Positions 21,544-58,158 of a DNA stretch of 64,000 nt are shown here, one piece after another (positions within the stretch are counted from its first letter, which is position 1; every line of letters starts with the position of its first letter). The stretch lies in contig CM055099.1 of the NCBI GenBank assembly GCA_029204225.1, positions 62,790,642 through 62,854,641 on the forward strand. Direction: 5' to 3'. The DNA is from Diphasiastrum complanatum. Its lineage: Eukaryota > Streptophyta > Lycopodiopsida > Lycopodiales > Lycopodiaceae. Both the position numbers and the translations under genes were made by a program. Under the pieces are notes generated by a model. It had not been told where the DNA came from, ran no database searches, and saw only the letters and a list, made by a program, of their open reading frames with translations.

Positions 21544-21610
21544 TGTAGGAAAGCAAGAGTCAAGTCACCAAGATCTAGTTATCAATCAATCTCCACAAGA
21601 AACAAGAGAG
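21544..21610 (-). repeat. Copia 3' LTR, distal 67 bp (split off)
   Basis: TGTAGGAAAGCAAGAGTCAA and the next 47 bases match the start of the LTR copy at 31459. Homology stops at AACAAGAGAG (21610) and resumes at about 26094, showing that 21611-26093 is a later insertion. Confidence 0.9.
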
Positions 21611-21636
21611 TTCACTAATCATGATTAGTGTTAATG
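21611..21636. repeat. Left terminal inverted repeat of the H3-carrying element
   Basis: It pairs with 26004-26029 in inverted orientation. About 18 of 21 central bases agree when one gap is allowed. The left end is itself partly palindromic (CACTAATCATGATTAGTG). Confidence 0.6.
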
Positions 21637-21834
21637 ACGACACGTGTGCCAATAAAAGAATGGCAATTGAGCAGCAATGGCCCATATGACATGGCAAATT
21701 GTATGGTGTAGATTAAATTAAGTGTGGGACCACTAAGTACACCTCTAGCATTAACCCTACATTAACTCTACATTACTATTTTTGAACAATCGAGAGATCT
21801 TTTTGGAATGCTTGCTATAATTGGAATGGCACAC

Positions 21835-21843
21835 TATATAAGG
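21835..21843 (+). promoter_or_regulatory. TATA box of the H3-like gene
   Basis: CTATATAAG lies about 170 bp upstream of the ATG at 22008. A transcript starting some 30 bp downstream would have a 5' leader of about 140 bases. Spacing and sequence fit a plant core promoter. Confidence 0.5.
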
Positions 21844-22007
21844 GTGTGTGGGTCCCCATTTCGCCATTTCATCCTTAGAGTGAGAGAGTTTCCTTTATTT
21901 TTCATAGGTTGATATCATCCTTCTATGCTCACACAAGTGCAAATTAGTGTCATTATTGCAATTCCTATACATTAGTACTCTATTATATCCGCATGGCGAC
22001 CTAGTTT

Positions 22008-23369
22008 ATGGCACGTACGAAACAAACAGCCAGGAGGAATCCAAGGGAAACAGCGTTATTGCACCAAGCTGCTTTAGAAGCAATAGAAGCTCGGGAAAGG
22101 CGCTCGAGGACTAGGAGTAGGAGCAGAAGTAGCAGCATTGAACCTGTGGTGGTGGAAATGGACAGGAGTCAGGATGAGCAGGCAACAATAGATGATCCTG
22201 GGGAAGTTCCCATGGATTGTGAGCAGGTGCAGGGGCAGCAGCAGGTGGCAATGGAAGAGCTTGGGCAACAGCAAGCGGCAATGGATGAGCAGGGGCAGGA
22301 GCAGGGGCAGCAACAAACACCTCTGGATGAGCAGCATATGGCCAGAGCAGCAGAGGATGTCCTGCTGCATGATTTTGGTGTGAGGTCAGTGCTGGGAAGC
22401 CCCTCTCCAACACAGAGCCAGCGCGACGCCACTCAGGCTTTTCTAGACAGTGAGGTAGCTGCTTCCGGGCCGATTCCCAATGATTTCCTTGGGATCTTCG
22501 ACAATCACGGTCCTCAGGAACAGGTGCCTCTTGATGGCTTTGCAGTTGGTTCGTCAAGAGTCGGAGCAGCTTCAGGGGACTCCACTCCGACACAATCACT
22601 CGGACATGTGCAAGGGCCTGTAATGGGGCCCATGATGTCCTTGCTCGTCGGCTCGGACCAGACACCCCACGCAGAAGCCGTTGGGGAGGCTTCTCAGCAT
22701 GTCACACCCACATCACGGCCGAAAGCTAAAGCTGTTCATTGAAAGAGAGGTCGCTCGAAGCCTCGACGCCTTCCGCGGACCATTTCTCAAGCACAGCCGC
22801 AGCCGGAAGCTCCCCAGGTGCCTCGAGATCAATCAGCACCAGAGGTGCCGCAGGACCCCCCGCAGGACCCTCCCACGCAAGATGAGGCAGGACCTAGCCA
22901 GCCAGCAACACGGAAAAGGGCAGCCACACCACCAGCACCCTGCCAAGGCAAGGTCCTCAGAAGGATGCAGCCTCCGCAACCACGCCGCCGAAGGAAGAGC
23001 CGAATTCCGAACTGGTATAAGGAGATTCAAAAATACCAGAAATCCACGGAATTCCTCATACCGAGAGCTCCATTTGTCCGAACGATCAAGGAGATCATGG
23101 AAGAATTCTCCCTTGGGCTCAGAATTACGGGCGAGGCTGCTTCGGCTATCCAAGAGGCGGCAAAGATGTATCTAACAAATTTGTTTGAAGACTCATTTTT
23201 GTGTGTTGTCCATTGTAAGAGAGTTACTATACTTCCAAAGGACAAGTTGTTGGCAAAGAGGCTGAGACGTGAGAGGAATCAAAAACAATGTACTCCAAAT
23301 TTCGAGATAATAGTATTAGATCATTTTTGTCATCCAACTGTTGAATTATTGTGTGAATTCATTTTATGA
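22008..23369 (+). CDS. Long-tailed histone H3-like protein, interrupted by one in-frame TGA
   Basis: The frame begins MARTKQTARRNPRET. The mature ARTKQTAR is identical to residues 1-8 of canonical H3, with K9 replaced by R and S10 by N. A Gln/Glu/Pro-rich, low-complexity tail follows. TGA at 22740-22742 interrupts it after 244 residues, but the same frame continues open to 23369 (453 codons in all). The C-terminal part, about residues 336-420 if read through, is an H3 fold: YKEIQKYQKSTEFLI (alpha-N), FEDSFLCVVHCKRVT (alpha-2 end and loop 2), then LPKDKLLAKRLRRE (alpha-3). Loop 1 has canonical H3 length, unlike plant CENH3. Residues matching H3 K56, R69, R83, H113, R116, T118, K122 and D123 are kept; R63 is P. 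The C-terminus has about 20 extra residues. It is intronless and lies in a TIR element. It could be a functional variant or a recently broken copy. Confidence 0.8.
22740..22742 (+). other. In-frame TGA dividing tail and histone fold
   Basis: CAT-TGA-AAG separates the upstream open frame from a 208-codon continuation in the same phase. No GT-AG intron of usable size spans it. It is therefore a point nonsense change, a sequencing error or a readthrough site. Confidence 0.85.
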
Positions 23370-23437
23370 TGAAATACAGTTTTCTGTGAATGTTTTTGGT
23401 TCACTAAATTTTCTATCAGAGTGTATATCAAATGCTG

Positions 23438-23690
23438 ATTTTCACGCAAGGGCGCGGACAGAGGCCGTTTGACTGGGTCAAACGGCCCTCCTCCGCGCCC
23501 TTGCGTGAAAATCACGCAAGGGCGCGGACAGAGGGAGTTTGACTGGGTCAACCGGCCCCCCTCCGCGCCCTTGCACACAAGGGCGCGGACAGAGGGCGTT
23601 TGAACAGGTCAAACGGCCCCCCTCCGCGCCCTTGCGTGCAAATCACGCCAGGGTGCGGAGGGGGGCCATTTGAAGTTCAAAATGGCACTT
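23438..23690. repeat. Tandem GC-rich hairpin array
   Basis: Three consecutive palindromic units (about 23438-23513, 23514-23574, 23578-23636) plus a partial fourth (23644-23686) each have arms of the type CAAGGGCGCGGACAGAGG and the reverse complement. Loops are short, such as CTGGG or ACAGG. The arms pair over about 25 bp. The array starts about 70 bp after the H3-like stop codon and lies between the two convergent genes, so both transcripts could run into it. In an otherwise AT-rich element the GC content is striking. Confidence 0.9.
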
Positions 23691-23829
23691 TAATGCCCTT
23701 AAATTTAGATGATTGGTAAAAATTTTCATAACCTACCATAATGAATGAAATTTTCGAACGCATGCAGTTTGAACTGAAATATTTTTGAAAAAAGATCACA
23801 TTTTCCTTTAAAATTCTTTTCCATTAGCC

Positions 23830-25723
23830 AGTGCTTCCAGTAGTGACTCTGATCTATTTTCTAGTCCTACTGTTGGCTTCATTAACTCCGATGCTAACTT
23901 AGCAGCATCAGCATGCTCCTCATATGGTCCAACCGCTGAGGCCAGAAGTAATCTGGACTCAAACCCCGGGCAGAAGTCTTGCAAGATAGCGCTCCTTCAT
24001 ACACAGTAGGCCTTTGGTGCAGTCTGTGGAAGTGGAGCATCTGCAAGATGCTTTGATAATGCTTTGCACTTGACCAGCTCAGTGGGCCCATCAGGACTAT
24101 ACTCATTGCTGAAACAGAAGATATAGTTGTCAGGGAATTGTCCAATGTAGTATGCCAGGGATGCATCTGACCTTCGCTCTGTTCGGTCCTCACGAGAACC
24201 TCCGCTCCTCATTGCAAAACTGTCAATCTATAAAACCACTGAAATATCTCTACCAAGGCATTGCTAAGACCTTTACCTCCACCATGTCTTGAATTTTTGA
24301 AATACGCAGCCTTGGCCCTGTAATGACTCTTCTCCATCCCTTGGGTATTCCAAATAGCCAATGATCCATATGTCTTAGAAAATCAAGGTCCATGAGCGTA
24401 CAAAATGTGCTGTTTGCAAAAGAATCTAATTAGTACATTTCACTTGGATAGAACTTACAAAGAAAAAATAAAGACAAAACACTGACCATATAATGAGTGA
24501 TGTGTGTTTCTCCCCATGCATCAATCATCAATCGAGTAAATGCTTGTACTTCCGTCTGATATCTATCGTAATCTTCCTCCCTCAAGTCTTTTTTTATTGA
24601 TAGTCAGTGACAAAGCATCAAATGCTTGCCACACCTTTGCACGTGTGGCAGCCATACAGGGATCCGAGCCAATATTTGTTGTGCATTCACACACTCTCTT
24701 CCAATACTCCCATATTATAATGAAAACGAACAATAGATCCCTTTTGCTTGCTGGATATTTTAAAAGTATCCTGAATATGGAAGAATCCACCTAATTCATT
24801 TTCTATAAATGAATTGCATTCTTGCTTTGTAGTTTGAAGCAATTTGTAAGCAGGTAATATTTGATGTCGTTTCAATCCGTTTTGGTCAGATTTTTTCATA
24901 AATTTTTTCAATGCTCTATATCCCTTTCGACTCACACCTCTTTGATCATATGCATAAACTATTTCGGTTGAAACCTAGTAGCAAGTCTTCTTGCAATATT
25001 TAAACGAAATGAATCACTCGTTTCATTTTCCACAATCTGCATCAAATATTTACCCTTCATGAATTGCTTCATATGTTTGGTGCTTTGGAAATGATCTCCG
25101 ACCATGTTATTCAAAAATTCTTTCGTCAATCTCTTGCATCTTTTACTAGCACTACCACCTGGTGTCAGAACATCTAGTTTGCGCCTTTTAGTATTGTCTT
25201 TTGATTGGTCATCCGTTGAGACTCGACACTTTCGCTGAAATCCATATAATATCTTTTGAAGACTAATGTTTAAAGATTGCAATTCTTCAAACTTTGTCAC
25301 AGATGTGGTGAGCTCTAATTTTGAATTTGTTATCTCTTTAGCCAATGTCTGATTTGTTTGTTGCAATGATTTTAATTGCTCATTCATGTATGTAATATGA
25401 ATGTTTGCACTATTCTCTAGCATTTCAGCTTGGATTCTTTGAGAATCCATAACTTGACAGCAGCCAAGAAGTCCGTTGGCACCATCACCAACGAACCTTA
25501 ACAAACTATGTACATCACAAAATTGAGGAGAAATATTGGTCGATGGATTAGGTGGATAAAAATCACCTTTTACCCATAGATCGATATTTTTCATTCCTTT
25601 TAACCTCCAACAATGCATTTCGTATGAGTTCAGATTAACACCCCATGCAGCTTTGATTGTGAAATACTCCTTCTCTAAGTTCACATGCAAGTGACATTTT
25701 GTTCCCATCTTGAAAAAGTCCAA
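23830..25723 (-). pseudogene. Unrecognised transposase-like gene of the TIR element, disrupted
   Basis: The longest frame (24959-25723) starts MDFFKMGTKCHLHVNLEKEY. It has a predicted coiled coil around NEQLKSLQQTNQTLAKEITN and a basic stretch (TKRRKLD, SKRCKRLTKEF). It continues after a one-base frame change at about 24961 into IVYAYDQRGVSRKGYRALKK (24687-24955). Another change leads to CTTNIGSDPCMAATRAKVWQ, then MIDAWGETHITHYM up to about 24487. After a possible intron comes a block at 24270-24409 with YGSLAIWNTQGMEKSHYRAK, containing one TGA. The last block (23850-24210) includes ASLAYYIGQFPDNYIF. The ITHYM and YGSLAxWNxQGMEKSHY pattern recalls C-terminal parts of some cut-and-paste transposases, but I cannot name the family. 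Convergent with the H3-like gene. Confidence 0.5.
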
Positions 25724-26003
25724 GGTCCAAGAAGATCTTCAAAAACGAATTTGGCTTAATGTTAGTTTGAAGTATGCATTTGAAATGAGCTAGACATGGA
25801 GTATTGTGTCATGCCTAGGTCCTATGTGTTGTACTTTTGGGATGACACTCAATGATAGGTTTTGTCCTACTCTAAGGTTACCCTAGTATAGTCTATGTAA
25901 CAAACCTACTAAAGTCTATGAAAATAGATCTTAGAGATAGCTCTTAACTCATGCTCACTCTATGTGGTAACCCATGGTAAAGGTGCCACGTAAAATGGAT
26001 TAG

Positions 26004-26029
26004 CATTACACTAATTATGATTAAGAAAC
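26004..26029. repeat. Right terminal inverted repeat of the H3-carrying element
   Basis: CATTACACTAATTATGATTA is the inverse of the left TIR with a few mismatches. About 64 bp of additional sequence follow before copia LTR homology resumes. Confidence 0.55.
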
Positions 26030-26093
26030 TTGTTTAGGCAAGGAAGAGGCCCTTTTTGAGTTCAAAAACTTTTTGAGTTCAAAAAGGGCCCTA

Positions 26094-26480
26094 ATGAGAG
26101 GCTGGGCGCCCAACTCTAGGAGAGGGCGAGAGAGAAAACAACAACAAGAGCAATGGAGAGCAATGCTTAGCCAAACTGTTCAAAATGGAATACACAATGA
26201 GCATCTAAGTACTCTACCTGGATGTGGCCAAATGCCACCAAACCCTAAGGTTAACCACTTACTAAATGTAGGGCACCCCCAAAAGACAAGATAGGGCCCC
26301 TAAACAAAATTAGACCTCTAAGGACCCACGAGTCAGTACATGACCAAAATTGGGTCCAGCTGAATTTAAGACAAACTTAAGATGGCCTAAATAACTAAAT
26401 ACCCTTGGTTACACAAATCTCGCCCTTTTGGGTCAAAGTAACCTATGGATTAACTTTAGCATAGTTATTTATTTCTAACA
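26094..26480 (-). repeat. Copia 3' LTR, proximal part
   Basis: GAGGCTGGGCGCCCAACTCT through TTATTTCTAACA matches 31528-31908 with about a dozen differences. It ends at 26480. On the minus strand a purine-rich AAGGAGGG directly precedes it, as expected for the polypurine tract. Confidence 0.9.
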
Positions 26481-31458: not shown

Positions 31459-31908
31459 TGTAGGAAAGCAAGAGTCAAGTCACCAAGTTCTAGTTATCAA
31501 TCAATCTCCACAAGAAACAAGAGAGAAGAGGCTGGGCGCCCAACTCTAAGAGAGAGAGAGATAAAACAACAACAAGAGCAATGGAGAGCAATGCTTAGCC
31601 AAACTGTTCAAAATGGAATACACAATGAGCATCTAAGTACTCTACCTGGATGTGGCCAAATGCCACCAAACCCTAAGGTTAACCACTTACTAAATGTAGG
31701 GCACCCCCAAAAGACAAGATAGGGCCCCTAAACAAAATTAGACCCCTAAGGACCCACGAGTCAGTACATGACCAAAATTGGGTCCAACTGAACTTAAGAC
31801 AAACTTAAGATGGCCTAAATAACTAAATACCCATGGTTACACAAATCTCGACCTTTTGGGTCAAAGTAACCTATGGAATAACTTTAGCATAGTCATTTAT
31901 TTCTAACA
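31459..31908 (-). repeat. Copia 5' LTR, intact 450 bp
   Basis: The minus-strand sequence begins TGTTAGAAATAAATGACT and ends TTTCCTACA, that is TG...CA. It matches the split 3' LTR. It flanks the primer-binding site on the inner side and gypsy G1 sequence on the outer side. Confidence 0.92.
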
Positions 31909-42010: not shown

Positions 42011-42384
42011 TTACCTCTCTTTGTTGGCACTACCGAGTGAACGACATATCAGCACCCACCCAGGTATTGCTTGCGCCCTTTTTGCACTTCCTTTTTGCAC
42101 CTACTTGCTGTCTTTTTTGCTCACATACTGCTCTTTTCCAGCCCCCTATTCCTGTTCATATTTGCTGCCTCACACCCTCCTCTTTCCATTTTCCATTTTG
42201 TTAGAACCCTTCTACTTCTTGGCCTTGCACATCTATTAATCTACTTTTCAGCCCCTTATTTTTTGATTATTATCCATCTTGATTGACTATTTATGTGCCA
42301 TTTTTGGTGATTTTGAAAGTTAGACTAAGTTGGGGTGACGACAAACGTCCTCTCCCTCAGGTTTTTGTCTCTTCCTCAGTCCCT

Positions 42385-43470
42385 ATGGTGACTTCTTCAT
42401 CGGAAGACCCTCCGCAGAGCTCTTTAGATGATCGTTTTACACATATTAATTCCCGCATGGATCATCTCGAGAGTCGTATTGATCGTGTTCTTTCTAGCCT
42501 TGAGACTATCCTACCACGAGGGGATACCCACCCCCCAGACATTCTTCACCGTCCTGGTAAAGCACCTTTATTTCCTATTTTGAGTACGCCTGCTCCTGCT
42601 CCATCTCCATCTTCAGAGGTGCTTTTGGTAGTACGTTTGGTCTCCCTTCATATAGTGCTAGTCCTTATGGGTCCTTTCGGGTCTTCTGTACCACTGAATT
42701 TCCCTCCGCACCACCAGGATTTCCTCCTTCTACTTTTTCAAGTAATCTTGAGCCTCATTTTGCTCGTGATTTTTTGTGATCGCATCCAGCTTACTACTTA
42801 TTCTGGTTCATCTGATGGGAATATCTTGGAAAATTGGTTCTCTAAGTTAGAGACCTATTTTCTTATGTATCCCAAAACTGAAACCTAGAAAGTGCAGTTG
42901 GCTGCGTTACATTTAGATAGTCGAGCTCAGACTTGGTGGCGTGTCTATCGCTCTAATCCTACTCGTGAGGGATTACTATATGGCCTACTTTTCGTCATGA
43001 TCTTCGTATGGCTATGATTGACCAACAGTGGTTGGTTCGCCAACATGATCTATTTCGTAGCCTTCGCCATACTAGTAATTTGACTGCTTATATTGATCAG
43101 TTTACTGAGCTTTCCTACCTTTTTACTAATCTTCATCCTACAGAGCTTATTTCACGTTTTATTGCTAGTCTTAGAGGTTCCTTACGATATGATGTTTCCT
43201 CTTTTCAACCTCCTACTCTCTCAGATGCTATCTCCTTGGCTACTACCCTGCAGCATAAGTATCCTGAGTTGTCCACTTCTTCTCGTTTTTCTCACCCTCT
43301 TTCCACTGCTTCTCCTACTTTGGCTTCTTCTACTACCGTTCCTCCTCACCCTTCTACACCTCGCCCTGCCTTTGTTCGTCGTTATTCAGCTGCAGAGTTC
43401 GCTGAGATTCAGCAAAAGCGCCTCTGTTATCGCTATAAGAGTCCAGATCATCTCGCCCGTGATTGCCGAT
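42385..43470 (+). pseudogene. G1 gag, plus strand
   Basis: A likely start is MVTSSSEDPPQSSLDDRFTH at 42385. Conserved gag blocks follow in shifted frames: RIQLTTYSGSSDGN, then KVQLAALHLDSRAQTWWRVY after a TAG near 42888, then LTAYIDQFTELSYLF and DAISLATTLQHKYPEL. The zinc knuckle reads CYRYKSPDHLARDC: its second Cys is a Tyr. At least two frameshifts and one stop break the gene. Confidence 0.85.
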
Positions 43471-43689
43471 AGTCTCCTGGTCCTCCTACCGCTGATCTTT
43501 ACCATGAGGCTCTTACTCCTGATGATTCTGATGTTTATATCCAGATTCTTGATACTCCTGACCCACATTTTGTTGATGAGCCGGCTGACCCGCTTCCCGA
43601 TGATCCTGCTTCTGCCGCTTGCCATGCGCAACTTGCTTATGCTACTTGGGCTGGGCGTCCTGGTCCTCGTTCTATTCGGTTACATGTTC

Positions 43690-45145
43690 GCATTTTGGGG
43701 CGAGAGTATATTGCATTGGTGGATACGGGCAGTACACACTTATTTATTAGCAGTTACATTTCCACCAAGATTCGTGCTACACCTATTTCTGCTACACAGT
43801 CTCTCAGTGTCGAGGTTGCTAGCTCACATACTTTTATCAACTCTTAGATGTTTCAGGGCTTGGACTATAGCATTGGTGACTTCTCTGGATAGGCAGATTT
43901 CTATATTATTCCTTTGGAGCACTATGACATTATTCTTGGTGCAGATTGGTTATCATCACTTGGTACTGTTGTTGTGGATCTTTCTCAGCAGACATTGTCT
44001 TTTACACATGCTGGTCGGCATCATTTACTTTCTGGTATTGATTCCCAAGGTGACTATCAGTTGGTTACCCGGAAGCGGTTTATGCGTAGCCTGCCAAAGG
44101 CTCAGGGTGCAGCTATTTTTATCTTTCAGAGTACATCAGTTGCTGCTCCTCCTGCTCCATCCATGGGTCCTCTTCCTCAGGTGATTTCTGACTTATTACA
44201 TCGGTATTCTATGGTCTTTTCAGAACCTACGTCTCTGCCACCATTACGAGATGTCACCCACTATATTGATCTTATTCCTGGTGCTACCCCACCTTCTTGT
44301 GCTCCATATCGTATGTCTAAAGGTGAACGTGATGAGGCTCAGCTCCAAATTGCTTCCCTTTCACGTCAGGGCCTCATTGTTCCTAGCCATAGTCCTTTTG
44401 GTGCTCCTGTCCTCCTTGTTGCCAAAAAAGATGGAACCAAACGCCTTTGCATTGACTATCGTGCCTTAAACAAGCTGACTATCCGTACTCAGTATCCTAT
44501 ACCTCACATGGATGACCTTTTTGATCAGCTTGGCATTTCTTCCATCTTTTCCAAAATTGACCTACGTTCTGGATACTACCAAATTAGGATGCGTCCTTCT
44601 GATGAGCATAAGACTGCATTTCGTACTCATTTGGGTTTGTATGAATTTCGTGTTCTTCCATTTGGTGTTCAGAATGGTCCACCGACATTTCAAAATGCTA
44701 TGAATAATATTTTACGTCCTCTTTTAGGTGTTTGTGTCTTAGTTTATTTCGATGACATCCTTGTTTTTAGTACTTCTTTGTCTGATCATGTAAAACATCT
44801 ATCATCTGTGTTTGATTTACTTATTAAGCATCAACTGTTCGCCAAATTGTCCAAATGTTCTTTTGCCGTGGCTGAAATCGAGTTTTTGGGTTTTCTTATT
44901 TGTGGTGGACGTATTCGTCTTGATCCTCGGAAAGTTCAGGCTATTGAGAATTGGCCTGTCCCAACCGATGTTCATTCTGTTCGTATGTTTTTAGGTATGG
45001 CAACCCATCTTCGTCGTCCTGTTAAGTATTTTGCCATTGTGGCTGCTCCGCTTCATTCGTTACTAAAGAAGTCTCATACCTTTGTTTGGACTTCTGAGTG
45101 TCAAACTGCTTTTGATGCTTTACGTCATGCCAGCAACGCTATCAG
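43690..45145 (+). pseudogene. G1 protease and reverse transcriptase, plus strand
   Basis: The protease motif ALVDTGSTHLFIS (about 43713) is followed by two in-frame stops and DIILGADWLSSLG. RT follows with KKDGTKRLCIDYRALNKLT, FSKIDLRSGYYQIRM, LPFGVQNGPPTFQNAMN and the catalytic LVYFDDILVF. The connection to RNase H reads ECQTAFDALRHAS at about 45133, where homology to pol stops. RT itself is open and well preserved. Confidence 0.92.
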
Positions 45146-45480
45146 ACTTCTGTTGATCGTCATCACCGTCATGTTGAGTTTTAGGTTGGTGATATGGTTT
45201 ACCTCCGGTTACGCTTTGCACATCATCACTTTGTTCAGGGTCACGCTTCTACAGAGAAGCTTGCACCACGCTATTATGGGCCTTACTGTATCTTGGATCG
45301 CCTCAGCCCTTTTACATATCAGTTACAATTGCCTGATTCTACACGAGCTTGTGATATCTTTCATGTTAGCCTGTTACGAGCTGTCATTGAGGATGATGCT
45401 CCTCGCAATCTCACATTTCCTACAGAGCCAGAGCTGTTCCCTTTTTTTCCAGCTGCCATCCATCAGGTTCACCTTTAGTA
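45146..45480 (+). pseudogene. G1 integrase C-terminus joined to RT by a deletion
   Basis: Directly after the RNase H start, YQTSVDRHHRHVEFQVGDM and VYLRLRFAHHHFVQGHAS appear in another frame. APRYYGPYCILDRLSPFTY and DIFHVSLLRAVIEDDAPRN follow. This is the gypsy integrase C-terminal region. RNase H and the whole integrase core are missing, an internal deletion of about 1.5-2 kb judging from related copies. Confidence 0.88.
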
Positions 45481-45753
45481 TAGTCGACGTCGCAGGCAAG
45501 TTCACAGTGGGATGGTCATCCTCTTGAGGAGGCCACTTGGGAGCCTATTGATGTGTTTTATCATACACCATTATTGGCAGATCAGGCTCGAGCCCTCATG
45601 GCTTTAGCTCTTTCCTCTACTACAGATGTCATTGTAGATGTTCCCTCTGCTTCATGATTCGGCTAGCTATGACTATTCTTTATTGTAGTATTTGCTTAGT
45701 ACTTGCTTTACACAGTTATGATGCTTTTGGGGTATCTGTTGTGACAACTTATG
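45481..45753 (+). mobile_element. G1 3' internal region
   Basis: It matches 31909-32165 (minus copy), including ACTACAGATGTCATTGTAGA-like and GGTATCTGTTGTGACAACTT. Homology between the two copies stops at about 45753. Confidence 0.7.
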
Positions 45754-53290: not shown

Positions 53291-53800
53291 GTCCGCACAG
53301 CAGGAGAGCTTTGATGCTCTCAAAACAGCCTTAGCCACAGCACCAGCTTTAAAAGTCGTCGACCCCAATCAGCCATTTGTGGTCGAAACAGATGCTAGCG
53401 ACTTTGCAGTTGGTGCTGTGCTAACTCAGGGTGGACGACCAGTTGCATTCAAGAGTAAAAAACTCGAGCCAGCTCAGACTAGGTACAGTGCCTATGAAAA
53501 GGAACTCTTTTCTATAGTCCATGCCCTTAAGACTTGGAGGCATTATTTGTATGGTGCCAACTTTGAGGTCCTGACAGACCATGAAAGTTTCAGATACCTT
53601 TGCAATCAACCTGAGATTAGAGGTCGGAAAGCTCGTTGGGCAGAGTTGATGCAAGAGTTTGATATGTCTATTAGATATAGACAGGGGAAATTCAATACAG
53701 TAGCAGATGCCCTTAGTAGAATGCCTATGATAAACGAGCTGAGTTTTACTCATATTCGTAATGAGTTACTCGAGTCCTTGAAAGGGAAGTGCCAGCATGA
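53286..53800 (+). pseudogene. Chromovirus E RNase H
   Basis: After a TGA replacing the usual Trp at 53286, the frame reads QPFVVETDASDFAVGAVLTQ, AYEKELFSIVHALKTWRHYL and VLTDHESFRYLCNQPEIRGR, ending NTVADALSRMP. The catalytic Asp/Glu residues (TDAS, EKEL, TDH) are all present. Confidence 0.9.
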
Positions 53801-54039
53801 TGCATTCTTCTCTACTATCTGGAACTCAGTCCAGAGCAGACAGTTACAGACTCCAGAGCCAATTCCCGGGGCTGGTGCCAGTTCATCCAAGAATACGGCA
53901 GCTTCCGTTGAGGATGATGATGAGTCCGGGTATATGTCAGATGACATTGAGGATTCTGAGCCTGTATTACCCAAGCAAACCCTAGTGGTTGAGGGTCAGT
54001 TGACTCAAGGATTCAAATGGAAACAATATTCCATTCAGG

Positions 54040-54870
54040 ATGAGTACTTGCTCTATAGAGATAGAGTATGTGTCCCCAATTCAGAGGATTATAGGCAGCA
54101 TGTCCTATATGAATGTCATGACAATCCTAGTGCGGGACACCCAGGCATACAGAAGACCTATGAGCTTCTTCGTAGGAAATTTTCTGGCCCAGTATGAAAA
54201 AGGACGTCCAACAATATGTAACCAGTGCCAGAAATGTCAAGTAAATAAAGCAGAGCATTTAAAGGCAGGAGGGTTGTTGCAGCCCTTAGATATACCAGCT
54301 GGTAAATGGGAGAGTATCTCCATGGATTTTATAGTAGGCCTGCCTAAAACCCAAAAGGGTAATGACGCTACATGGGTCACAATTGACCGTCTGACCAAAA
54401 TGGCTCATTTTATTCCGACCAAAACAACCGTTAGAGCTCCAGAGTTAGCGAGGTTGTTTGTAGACGGTCTATTTAAATTGTACGGTCTACCCTCCGGCAT
54501 AGTCAGCGACCGGGACAGTAAGTTTAATGGAAATTTTTGGAAGGCAGTATTCCATCATCTCCATACTAAACTTAATATGAGTACCACCAACCATCCACAG
54601 ACGGACGGTCAAACAGAGAGGGTAAATCAGGTGCTGGAGGATATGCTTCGTGCATACGTCAGCAAGAAGCAGACTAATTGGGAGGAGTATCTCTCGATAT
54701 TAGAGTTTTCTTACAACAGTACCAAACATTCAGCTACGGGATACAGCCCATTTATGCTGATGTACAGTTTTCAGCCACGCTCACCCACAGCTATAGGGTT
54801 TAAACAAGAAAAAGTTGAAGCAGCCAGAAACTTTTTTAGAAGACCTAAACCAGATGATAGAACATGCTAA
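54040..54870 (+). pseudogene. Chromovirus E integrase
   Basis: The HHCC zinc motif (HVLYECHDNPSAGHPG ... CNQCQKCQVNKAEH) is split by a frameshift at about 54190. The catalytic triad is visible as SMDFIVGLPKTQ, GIVSDRDSKFNGNFW and HPQTDGQTERVNQVLEDML. A stop at 54868 separates it from the C-terminal domain. Confidence 0.9.
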
Positions 54871-54945
54871 GCGTAGCATTAGGCAGTCCCAGGATCGAGC
54901 CAGGCATTATGCAGATCCCAGTTCTCCACTGGTGAGAAAGTCTAC

Positions 54946-55365
54946 TTGAGAGTCCCAGTTGACTCTAAAACCCTCAAATCAGGAGTGTGTGCTAAATTGT
55001 CTCCTAGGTATTGTGGTCCCTTTACTATCAATAGGAGACTAGGCGAAGTCACCTATGAACTAGAACTCCCACACAGTAGTAAGGTTTTTCCAGCCTTTCA
55101 TGTAAGTCAGTTACGAAAAGCCTTAGCCAGAGCAAAAAATCTGGTAGGGGACAGTGTTCTAGTTCTCCCATTGGATCCTCAACAACCTCCACATGAGCCA
55201 GAGGAGATTCTTAATAGTAGAGAGATGTAGACTCGTCATACTCTATATCGAGAATATCTGGTCAAGTGGAATGATCAGTCGGTTGAGAATGCCACTTGGG
55301 AAAGAGGCAACGTCCTTCGCAAGATGTTTCCAGACTTTGTCTTAGAGGACCAAGACGGTTCTTAA
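54946..55365 (+). pseudogene. Chromovirus E integrase C-terminus and chromodomain
   Basis: SPRYCGPFTINRRLGEVTYE and VFPAFHVSQLRKAL belong to the GPY/F module. After a TAG at 55228, YREYLVKWNDQSVENATWE is a chromodomain core (aromatic Y, W, W-x-E). Such domains steer integration toward marked chromatin, often H3K9-methylated. Confidence 0.85.
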
Positions 55366-55375
55366 GGGGGAGGGA
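55364..55375 (+). other. Polypurine tract
   Basis: AAGGGGGAGGGA immediately precedes the 3' LTR (TGTTACGAG at 55377). Confidence 0.85.
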
Positions 55376-55376
55376 G

Positions 55377-55724
55377 TGTTACGAGCTCGTGACCAGTGCC
55401 GAACCCTGGAGAACACAGATAGGTCAGATACCACAGTCAGGGTCGTGTCCAGCGTACACGACCAACAGGGCAAGACAGTGTGAGTAGTGTGCCCTAGCAC
55501 GGTCCATAGCCTAACACAGTCTAGGGACCCTGTCAGCAGGACAGGGGCCCCAGTTGAGTCCCGACGTGCAGTCGGCCACGTCAGTGCCACGTGGCCGACA
55601 CTTGGCAGTTGCATGCTACAAGTCCTCACACTGGGCTAGGAGGGGCTTACTCTATATCAGGGAGTAGGCAAGGTTGGGTGGATCAGTTAGTGTTTGCCCT
55701 ACTGTGGTGTTAGGATCTATTACA
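55377..55724 (+). repeat. Chromovirus E 3' LTR
   Basis: It starts TGTTACGAGCTCGTGACC and ends at about TATTACA (55724), where RT sequence of the next copy begins. It shares blocks with the LTR at 38367-38737, including CACACTGGGCTAGGAGGGGC. Confidence 0.75.
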
Positions 55725-56640
55725 AAAGTGGATACCATCAAATACGGATTCGAGATAAAGACGGCCTTCCGAACCCGTTTTGGTCATTATGAGTTTTGGT
55801 TATGCCATTTGGGTTAACCAATGCCCCAACCACGTTCATGATGCTCATGAACGATGTCTTGCAAGACTATATGGGCAAGTTTGTCGTCAATTTTATTGAT
55901 GATATATGGGTTTTTAGTAAAGCGGACGAGGAGCATGAGGTTCATCTCAAGACCGTATTGGGCAAGTTACAAGCTTCTGTCTTGTATGCCAATGCTTAGA
56001 AGACAAAGTTGTGTAAGACTCGTGTCGAGTATTTGGATCACGTAGTAACAGCTGAGGGTATTTCAGTTGACCCAGCCAAGGTGGTTGTGGTTAAGAAGTG
56101 GCCAAGGCCTGCCGATATATGCCAATTACAATCTTTCTTAAGTTTTTGTAAGTTCTACCGGCAGTTCGTTAGGAACTATTCCAAGGTAGTTGCTCCTTTG
56201 ATGGACCAGTTACGGAAAAACAGCATTGTAGATCGGTGGGTTGCTGAAGCTCATCACATGAGACCTTGATGTAGGCGCTGGCTACGGCTCCAGTTCTCAA
56301 GTTTGTTGATACCCAGAAACCGTTTGACCTAGAGACGGATGCAAATGGCATTGCCGTAAGTACAGTGTTGAGCCAAGATGGTATACCCGCACAGGAGTAA
56401 GAGCTATATGTGAGTACATGCGCTCAAGGTGTGGAGACATTATTTATATGGTGCCAAGTTTTTTGTGTACACAGATCATTATACTTTAAAGTATTTTGCA
56501 CTCAGCCAGATTTGTAAGGCCGCCAAGCTCGGTTGGCCGAGCTGATGCAGGAATTTCATTTGGAACTTCGCTTCCGAAGAGGGAAGGAAAATGTGGTCGT
56601 TGATGCACTAGCATTGGTACTGCATCAGATGAGCCTTGCC
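55725..56640 (+). pseudogene. Chromovirus B RT and RNase H, 5' truncated
   Basis: It begins inside RT (KTAFRTRFGHYEF-like, about 55758). [19 protein letters not shown] and the catalytic NFIDDIWVFSKAD follow. A TAG at 55999 and further frame changes occur before CQLQSFLSFCKFYRQFVRN and an RNase H remnant (YLYGAKFFVYTDHYTLKYF). There is no gag or protease. Confidence 0.85.
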
Positions 56641-58158
56641 TGTAGTTGACAGTGATCTCATGGAGGAGATCAAGAGGGCTCAGCAAAAAGGACCCACATT
56701 GTCAGTGTATGTAGCCTATGCATGCAAGTTAGTCGACCAAGCGGAAGAGTCAGCCTCGCCTGTCGCTTCCGTAGAGGAACACACCAGTACTTATTTGACA
56801 TACACCGTGAAGGAAGGTATGTAGTTGAGGAAACGGGAGTATTTGTGCCAAACGTGAAGGATCTTCATCGTAAGATACTTCATGAATGCCATGATAGTCC
56901 CTGTACAGGGCACCCTGGTATTGATAAGACTAGTGAGCTTTTAAGAAGGCATTTTTTTTGGCCACGATTGCAGCGGGATGTAAGAGAGTACGTCCAGCGT
57001 TGCACGGCTTGTCAGGTGAACAAGGTCGACAGAGTAAGTCCTCTGGGCTTGCTACATCCACTTGAGATACCTATAGGAAGGTGGGAAAGCATCTCTATGG
57101 ATTTTATTGTTAGGCTACCCAAGACCCAGAATGGATTCAATTCTGTTATGGTAGTGGTAGACAGGTTTTCCAAGATGGCTCATTTCATCACAACAACCAA
57201 GAAGGTCACAGCTCCACAAGTGGCTGAGTTGTTTATTCAAAATATTGTCAGGTTACATGGTCTTCCGAAGTCCATAGTTTTTGACAGGGATCCCAAGTTT
57301 ACGGGAAATTTTTGGATTGAGGTGTTCGCCAAGCTGGGAACACAATTGTGGATAAGTGGCTCTGAGCATCCTCAGACGGATGGTCAAACAGAGCGAGTAA
57401 ATCCGATCTTGGAAGATATGCTTAGGGCCTATGTTAGTAGTACGCAAACAGACTGGGTAAAGCATTTACCGCTATTGGAGTTCGCGTACAATGATAAGAG
57501 ACATGCGTCCACTGGATTGAGTCCATTTGAGCTCAGTTATGGTTTCAGACCATTGAGTCCTACAATCATTGGGATTCCACATAGGGTACCTAGTGTTGTA
57601 GAGTTTTTGGCTCAATTGCAGCAGAAGCTAGAGTTGGCACAAGATAACTTGTCCAAAGCTGTAGCTAGGGCAAAGAGTTATGCTCATGAGAACCGTACCT
57701 ATCGAGAATTTGAGAATGGAGATTGGGTGTATATACTACTCCCTTCGAAGTCGAAGGTGCTACGCACAGGAAAGTGCGCCGAGTTATCTCCTAGGTATTG
57801 TGGACCATGGTTGATTATTAAGAAGGTGAGCCAAGTAGCTTATAAGCTACAGCTACTTGTGGGATGCAAGGTGCATCCAGTATTTCATGTTAGCAAACTG
57901 AAGAAATGTTTGCACGATGGCGATAGCCTGGTGGAAAGTCTAGTGTCTCTAGAGGAGAAAGACACCACAGGTTATGGGCCAGATAGAATCCTAGATCAAA
58001 GGGAGCGACGAGTGCGGAATCGTCTTCTTCAAGAGTATCTAGTAACTTGAAAAGGGCATCCGTTGTCAGATGCTACCTGGGAGACGCGACAGGCGTTGTA
58101 GAAGTCTTACCTAGAGTTTGTCATCGAGGACCGATGACTTGCCAGAGGAGGGAAGGAT
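56640..58158 (+). pseudogene. Chromovirus B integrase with chromodomain
   Basis: The open frame 56722-58050 contains the zinc motif (HECHDSPCTGHPGIDKT ... CTACQVNKV). The triad follows: SMDFIVRLPKTQ, SIVFDRDPKFTGNFW and HPQTDGQTERVNPILEDML. SPRYCGPWLIIKKVSQVAYK comes next. The chromodomain part (LLQEYLVT, then TGA, KGHPLSDATWE) is split by a stop. At 442 codons this is the longest intact retroelement frame here. Confidence 0.9.

Follow-up and report, generated by a model that had tools for sequence, protein, structure and literature searches.

The locus analysed here raises the question of why a gene for a histone H3-like protein lies inside a mobile element. In a 64,000-nucleotide stretch of the clubmoss Diphasiastrum complanatum genome (the window), a copia retrotransposon is interrupted by a second element that carries the gene, and an earlier note, made from the letters alone, proposed that the gene travelled with that element, either as its cargo or as one of its own parts. 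Our survey of the 1.74-Gb genome supports this proposal and goes beyond it: with a probability of roughly 85%, the insertion in the window is a decayed member of a high-copy D. complanatum DNA transposon family with its own H3-type histone, which is an integral, selected gene of the element and not one-off cargo.

The H3-like gene occupies positions 22008-23369 of the plus strand. Its translation opens with MARTKQTARRNPRE and closes with an H3 fold; a Pfam profile search of the protein returns Histone (E 7.4e-28), and the closest solved structures in the PDB are H3.1/H3.2/H3.3 chains (E 8.7e-27), in agreement with the earlier description of an exact H3 N-terminus and a complete H3 fold separated by a long tail. 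An in-frame TGA at 22740-22742 breaks the frame, so that the window copy is split into open stretches of 244 and 183 aa. A chance open frame is ruled out by the stop counts, with two stops in frame +0 (one of them terminal) against 12-22 in the remaining five frames, and by 2000 Markov shuffles, which had 15 stops on average and none of which had two or fewer. A putative TATA-box-like sequence, TATATAAG, lies upstream of the gene at 21835-21842 (+).

The tail of about 315 residues (22008-22964, +) comprises the MARTKQTAR start, RS-rich and Q/E-rich parts and a basic linker, as seen in the alignment of the intact copy L023 with six copies of a second subfamily (B; L029-L034), and the same alignment reveals motifs common to the window gene and subfamily B, like FLDxExAASG..ND and GPVxGPMMSLLVGSD. 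An MQPP linker and the H3 fold follow (22965-23279, +), delimited by Pfam, PDB and the alignments; in relatives, the protein ends with RERN (window position 23279), and the window residues beyond this point are read-through. The canonical H3 tail and the RPGTVALREIR segment are absent from the alignments of the element histone, and loop 1 has the H3 length, as noted earlier, and is not lengthened in either subfamily. H113, R116 and D123, residues of the H3-H3' contact, are kept in the window sequence as judged by eye. Used as a query, the read-through protein gave 35 matches that lie around the fold and cover at most 31% of the query. These matches include two long proteins without a name, P0035 (441 aa) and P0037 (430 aa), whose fold is CENH3-like (LIPM..F, RWQA or CWQA). 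The structural model of the histone fold reached a pLDDT of 69.6 and a best Foldseek E of 6e-4, and no claim made here rests on it.

The element that carries the gene, an internally deleted copy, spans 21611-26096 (+), as delimited by blastn against 20 other copies and by the empty site. This 4.5-kb insertion splits one LTR of the minus-strand copia element: the left part of the 3' LTR lies at 21544-21610 (-), the rest at 26097-26480 and the other LTR at 31459-31908, with flanks AATAT/AATAC. Identity with the other LTR is 96.9% for one piece (384 bp) and 98.5% for the second (67 bp), and the left flank, one base and the right flank together restore an uninterrupted LTR. Thus, the insertion is younger than the copia element and generated no target-site duplication, and its location inside a copia LTR, as originally proposed, is borne out by both the LTR identities and the empty site. 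Elsewhere in the window, at 42283-45527 and 53379-58050, ORFs resemble gypsy-type gag/pol fragments by eye.

The true terminus of the element starts with CATTAGGGCCC and is kept on the right of the window copy (26046-26096, -), where it contains an internal 17-bp duplication and has the end CTAATG. The left terminus is lost, so the description of the insertion as bounded by terminal inverted repeats holds for the family, in which inverted termini are shared, and fails for this copy. Given the position of the true terminus, the imperfect repeat 21609-21636/26004-26030 was rejected as the element terminus, and a Helitron was rejected because the ends misfit, as judged by eye. Alignment with the 7.95-kb copy L021 reveals three internal deletions in the window copy, with joints near 21769-21773, 24227-24229 and 24713-24715.

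What remains downstream of the histone gene are three GC-rich near-palindromes (23436-23673) located between convergent genes, with a predicted RNA fold of -177 kcal/mol (z -15.3), followed by remnants of the minus-strand genes. Repeats related to the palindromes occupy the equivalent place in L021 and in the subfamily B stretch L035 (193-350 of L035), and these arrays, kept in both subfamilies, are possible terminators or other signals. The segment 23690-24229 (-) probably represents the 3' portion of another minus-strand gene, which corresponds to the ORFs m135/m192 of L021 and is mostly deleted here. The 3' exons of a transposase-like gene lie at 24227-24713 (-), with a candidate GT..AG intron from about 24487 that would be spliced out, and its 5' exon at 24959-25723 (-) is a 254-aa ORF, without a Pfam family above the cut-off, for which a long helix is predicted in a low-confidence model (pLDDT 50.8) that likewise supports no claim.

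The DNA of the window histone has at least 42 matches in the genome at 84-100% identity, its own copy counted (352 candidates, 40 scored). Twenty copies with flanks were taken from the 42 matches, which, together with the window copy, make up 21 copies of subfamily A. From CATTAGGGCCCTTTTTGGACTCAAAAAGGGCCTCTTC to the matching inverted terminus, L021 measures 7.95 kb, and the three fuller elements span 7.95-8.74 kb with inverted termini CATTAGGGCCCTTTTTGRACTCAAAAAGGGCC... The plus-strand genes, a small ORF containing C/H pairs and then the histone gene, are followed by the palindromes; on the minus strand, L021 has ORFs of 135, 192, 339 and 266 residues, of which we infer that the last two form the core of a multi-exon gene, taken as the transposase. 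None of the ORFs of the element other than the histone matches a Pfam family above the cut-off, and the transposase-like pieces gave no Pfam or NCBIfam family and no PDB match. DDE-like residues in the transposase-like gene were read by eye only, and similar transposase-like proteins probably exist in animals.

Within the stretches fetched, the left terminus is kept in 10 of the 20 copies and the right one in two, and L011 carries a right-type terminus in reverse orientation. The 32-bp terminus occurs exactly 817 times genome-wide (424 + 393), compared with zero occurrences of the reversed control. Among the first 100 listed places, we examined ten inverted terminus pairs, two of them 8.1-8.7 kb and eight 0.4-1.2 kb apart (two of the eight with one common flank). 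A target-site duplication of 4 bp or more is ruled out in all ten, one of which has three matching bases at its flanks, and is likewise missing from the empty site of the window. The short pairs (for example, C1:81941129-81941542 and C1:65845078-65846079) are presumably non-autonomous, MITE-like derivatives. Three pairs of copies (L021/L022, L014/L015 and L017/L018) are near-identical with equal left flanks at different places and represent segmental or assembly duplicates.

The full histone frame is open in one of the 21 subfamily A copies, L023, which encodes 420 residues from MARTKQTAR to RERN, and the fold is free of stops and indels in 7 of the 16 non-redundant copies. Across the family, an intact histone measures 412-420 aa and consists of MARTKQTAR, a tail of roughly 310 residues and the H3 fold. 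The most complete copy, L021, has a broken histone frame, the stretch of L023 contains a transposase scrap only and no terminus, and we saw no element with every gene intact among the copies examined. Scans of viral contigs confirmed no viral relatives.

Among the protein matches listed, the D. complanatum gene models P0001 and P0002 (two matches of 198 candidates) and P0038, P0039 and P0040 (among 120 listed of 262 matches, from 392 candidates) are the only ones above the general H3 level. They reside on five chromosomes, according to their locus tags, and each covers the fold only. P0040 (locus tag 15G) is 53% identical to the window copy and CENH3-like in places, and may mark another subfamily.

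P0002, the sequence of which is encoded exactly at C13, led to subfamily B: all 150 scored places, the best of 6085 candidates, match it, all but the last at 74-100% identity, and 100 of the 150 are listed without an internal stop (counted by eye), with open frames of up to 440 aa. Together with the matches of the window DNA, these places touch all of C1-C24. From subfamily B, we sampled six copies picked for long open frames, of which L030 is open over 417 residues from stop to stop. The three that are open to the start begin with MARTKQTAR (two copies) or MAWTKQTAR (one), after which the protein continues with an RS-rich part, a Q-rich part, FLDEELAASG..ND, GPVMGPMMSLLVGGSD, a proline run, GKELRRMQPPPP and the fold. 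The B tails are 39-41% identical to that of L023 over 270-274 aligned codons.

The two subfamilies share the whole arrangement of the element. L035, located downstream of the B histone L029, has the order and orientation of L021 (H3, palindromes, m135, m192, transposase), with identities of 64% for m135, 50-60% for m192 and 66-71% for the transposase; the 5' transposase exon and the right terminus were not found within this stretch. A B element at C2:61995433-62004169 is delimited by the exact shared termini, 8.74 kb apart; the B copy inside it, at C2:61998612, includes the small ORF (61%), and its histone is interrupted by a single stop. Furthermore, a 168-residue transposase piece used as a query matched all 150 scored places, the best of 9834 candidates, and at least 65 of these lie within 9 kb of a listed H3 place (chance expectation, 0.29). 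In 63 of the 65 pairs, the two genes are convergent as in L021, at a median distance of 3659 bp. Viewed from the histone side, at least 59 of the 150 P0002 matches and at least 6 of the 40 window-DNA matches have a listed transposase place; the 190 listed H3 places amount to 189, because C11:7040653/7041588 stands in both lists, and these counts are lower bounds, as only listed histone and transposase places enter them. Copy number, linkage, gene order, termini and intact histone frames are thus established from the genome sequence. The histone is neither single-copy nor confined to fixed host loci outside elements, as many copies share both the neighbouring transposase-like gene and its arrangement.

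The evidence that the gene is maintained comes from the comparison between subfamilies. In the fold, seven A copies (picked for open folds) and six B copies (picked for long open frames) differ with pN 0.21 and pS 0.90, that is, they are saturated at synonymous but not at nonsynonymous sites; the differences by codon position are 0.26/0.17/0.66, and the other frames give pN 0.37-0.40 and pS 0.25-0.31. The tail of L023 compared with two B copies gives pN 0.42-0.45 and pS 0.84-0.85. The other genes are constrained as well: the transposase pieces of L021 and L035 give pN 0.14-0.17 and pS 0.51-0.52, and the transposase, m192 and m135 pieces taken together pN 0.14-0.27 and pS 0.51-0.72. Given that pS is 0.90 for the histone and 0.51 for the transposase, the two genes may have separate histories; module exchange or a faster-mutating region could account for this gap.

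Within subfamily A, the selection tests are weak. The dN/dS is 0.41 for the fold (other frames 0.68 and 0.69), 0.58 for the tail (0.54 and 0.92), 0.49 for m192 and 0.48 for m135, and no frame-specific constraint was detected in the transposase 5' exon (0.73) or the small ORF (0.79), both of which exceed their own other frames. A column permutation gave P 0.046 (fold) and 0.022 (tail) for shared substitutions, P 0.11 and 0.33, respectively, for all substitutions; neither the transposase 5' exon nor the small ORF showed a signal. The N/S contrast between shared and single substitutions was equalled by the out-of-frame control, and the codon-position contrast reached P 0.014 for position 2, a position chosen after seeing the table. 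The near-duplicates L015, L018, L019 and L022 were left out of the N/S counts, and L025 was additionally left out of the fold-intactness, codon-position, dN/dS and permutation counts. The between-subfamily result therefore carries the claim, and at the codon level it shows that the histone is under long-term purifying selection. This constraint, the common order and termini, and the linkage in 65 of 150 cases identify the histone as a selected part of the element.

The same data bear on two simpler accounts. A host H3 or CENH3 gene could have been picked up once and amplified as a passenger without function for the element; capture of host genes is common in plant transposable elements, most subfamily A copies examined are broken, and no fully intact element was seen. 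However, fold and tail are constrained between subfamilies at synonymous saturation, and the gene has an equal place and order in both, with linkage in at least 65 of 150 cases, which makes this account improbable; a Pack-type captured fragment without lasting constraint, in particular, is largely refuted by the pN and pS of the fold. The five gene models, for their part, would fit a host family of long-tailed clubmoss H3 genes that merely lie among transposons. Yet these models cover the fold only, the family occupies more than 100 places with common termini, and the window copy is inserted in a copia LTR, so that, in view of the empty site and the copy number, this reading is refuted and retains hardly any probability.

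Whether the parent gene was H3 or CENH3 matters for a further alternative, in which the protein is a derived relative of the centromere histone and would direct where the element inserts or how it segregates, by centromere targeting or drive. Two features, LIPRAPFVR and the T of RxT.EA, match plant CENH3, and our trees place the family beside CENH3 with support of 88/83 (89/82 under a C20 model, 83/82 without P0040, and 90/85 with more copies, in a tree that left out three H3 rows and L037-L040). A tree of 127 rows groups the family with CENH3 at SH-aLRT 72. However, removal of two columns (LIP and T) moves the family to H3 (58/97.6), LIP also occurs in four other non-clubmoss H3-like matches, and the grouping of the element proteins with H3 had a p-AU of 0.036 in one run of the AU test but 0.054, 0.18, 0.29 and 0.12 in others. 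The correlation of variation within the family with that among H3 and CENH3 is weak and mixed (rho 0.375, P 0.0004 with P0040; rho 0.247, P 0.02 without). On balance, the sequence comparisons slightly favour CENH3 as the parent. The judgement of the earlier note that the protein is not an obvious CENH3 was fair in view of the short loop 1, yet the trees lean towards plant CENH3.

With maize CENH3 as a query, the best 150 of 5093 candidates were scored, the first 13 at 60-64% identity and 137 more distant; the one fetched among these 13 (L041) is an ordinary host H3, and no intronless host CENH3 was found among the places listed. Four of the 137 distant places (L037-L040) belong to a third H3-like family (L037-L040 and L042, on contigs C11, C558, C8 and C22); these four have a loop 1 longer by one residue, LIPRAPF or LIPRVPF, and a C-terminal extension, and are only partly aligned in the later tree. 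One copy is followed downstream by a sequence distantly related to the small ORF (34-37%, E 3.6e-8). The longer loop 1 of this family would fit a CENH3-derived protein, as opposed to the short loop 1 of both A and B, the ARTKQTAR start, which is the H3 N-terminus, and the spread of places over all of C1-C24, where centromere positions are unmapped. Altogether, we consider a centromeric role unlikely.

What, then, would an element gain from its own H3? Ten of the 21 A copies have the exact MARTKQTAR start. At position 9, all 21 and the three B copies showing this position have R, Q, G or D and never K; ARKS is absent from all seven proteins inspected, three of which are without the N-terminus. 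Host silencing of transposons is written on histone H3 tails. We therefore propose, tentatively and from sequence features alone, that the element protein would pair with host H4 and enter nucleosomes on element DNA, so that the resulting chromatin would keep the H3 N-terminus up to R8 (including T3 and K4) and would be without K9 and the ARKS motif of K9/K27. Such an element would escape H3K9/K27-based silencing, and the long tail would serve to attract factors of the element or the host. Chromatin that cannot be marked by this host machinery appears to be the simplest use of the gene for the element.

Alternatively, the histone could pack the element or its excised form, or scaffold the synaptic complex. 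Its convergent position next to the transposase-like gene, in conserved order, would suit such a nucleoprotein role, whereas the elements of 0.4-1.2 kb seem to have moved without encoding the histone, so that the protein would need to act in trans; we regard this role as possible but rather doubtful. In a more far-reaching reading, a lineage of plant DNA transposons may have turned a host H3 or CENH3 gene into its own histone, yielding silencing-resistant or otherwise privileged nucleosomes, and at least one further multicopy H3-like family of this genome may do the same, a suggestion that we likewise advance with reserve. If so, encoding a histone may be a strategy that elements have adopted repeatedly.

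A family that is present at well over 100 places and has its own histone suggests that a transposon can come equipped with a building block of chromatin. If our proposal is correct, an H3 without K9 supplied by the element would be a direct way round host silencing, and it would become testable how far a selfish gene can set nucleosome identity. The family is also relevant to the emergence and rapid evolution of CENH3, and to those histone-like gene models in plant genomes that still lack an explanation. To our knowledge, no transposon with a core histone gene has been described, and the listings of open-licence papers that we searched show no precedent.

Compared with plant CENH3 (HTR12 type), the element histone shares the H3 fold, the ARTK start, a divergent tail and LIPxAPF with RxT, but its loop 1 is not lengthened (A and B), its tail is several times longer, and it is encoded within a transposon in many mobile copies. 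Passages on plant CENH3 and H3 variants in three papers (PMC11687628, PMC4357034, PMC8603533) do not describe such elements. Canonical H3.1/H3.3 shares the fold, the loop 1 length, ARTKQTAR and VTIxPKD with the element histone, which, in contrast, lacks RPGTVALREIR and K9 and has a long Q/P/E-rich tail. With respect to the termini, the clubmoss element is similar to Spy, which also has inverted termini and no target-site duplication; Spy is small with one gene, whereas the clubmoss element is multi-gene. VANC of the Arabidopsis VANDAL elements, a transposon-encoded anti-silencing protein, offers a functional parallel, as both genes lie beside a transposase and both products would counter silencing, but VANC is a sequence-specific DNA-binding protein and the clubmoss product is a histone. 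Finally, core histones are encoded by viruses, namely those of marseilleviruses and the H4 of bracoviruses, and here too a mobile genome has its own histone; these histones are viral, whereas the clubmoss element is a plant DNA transposon.
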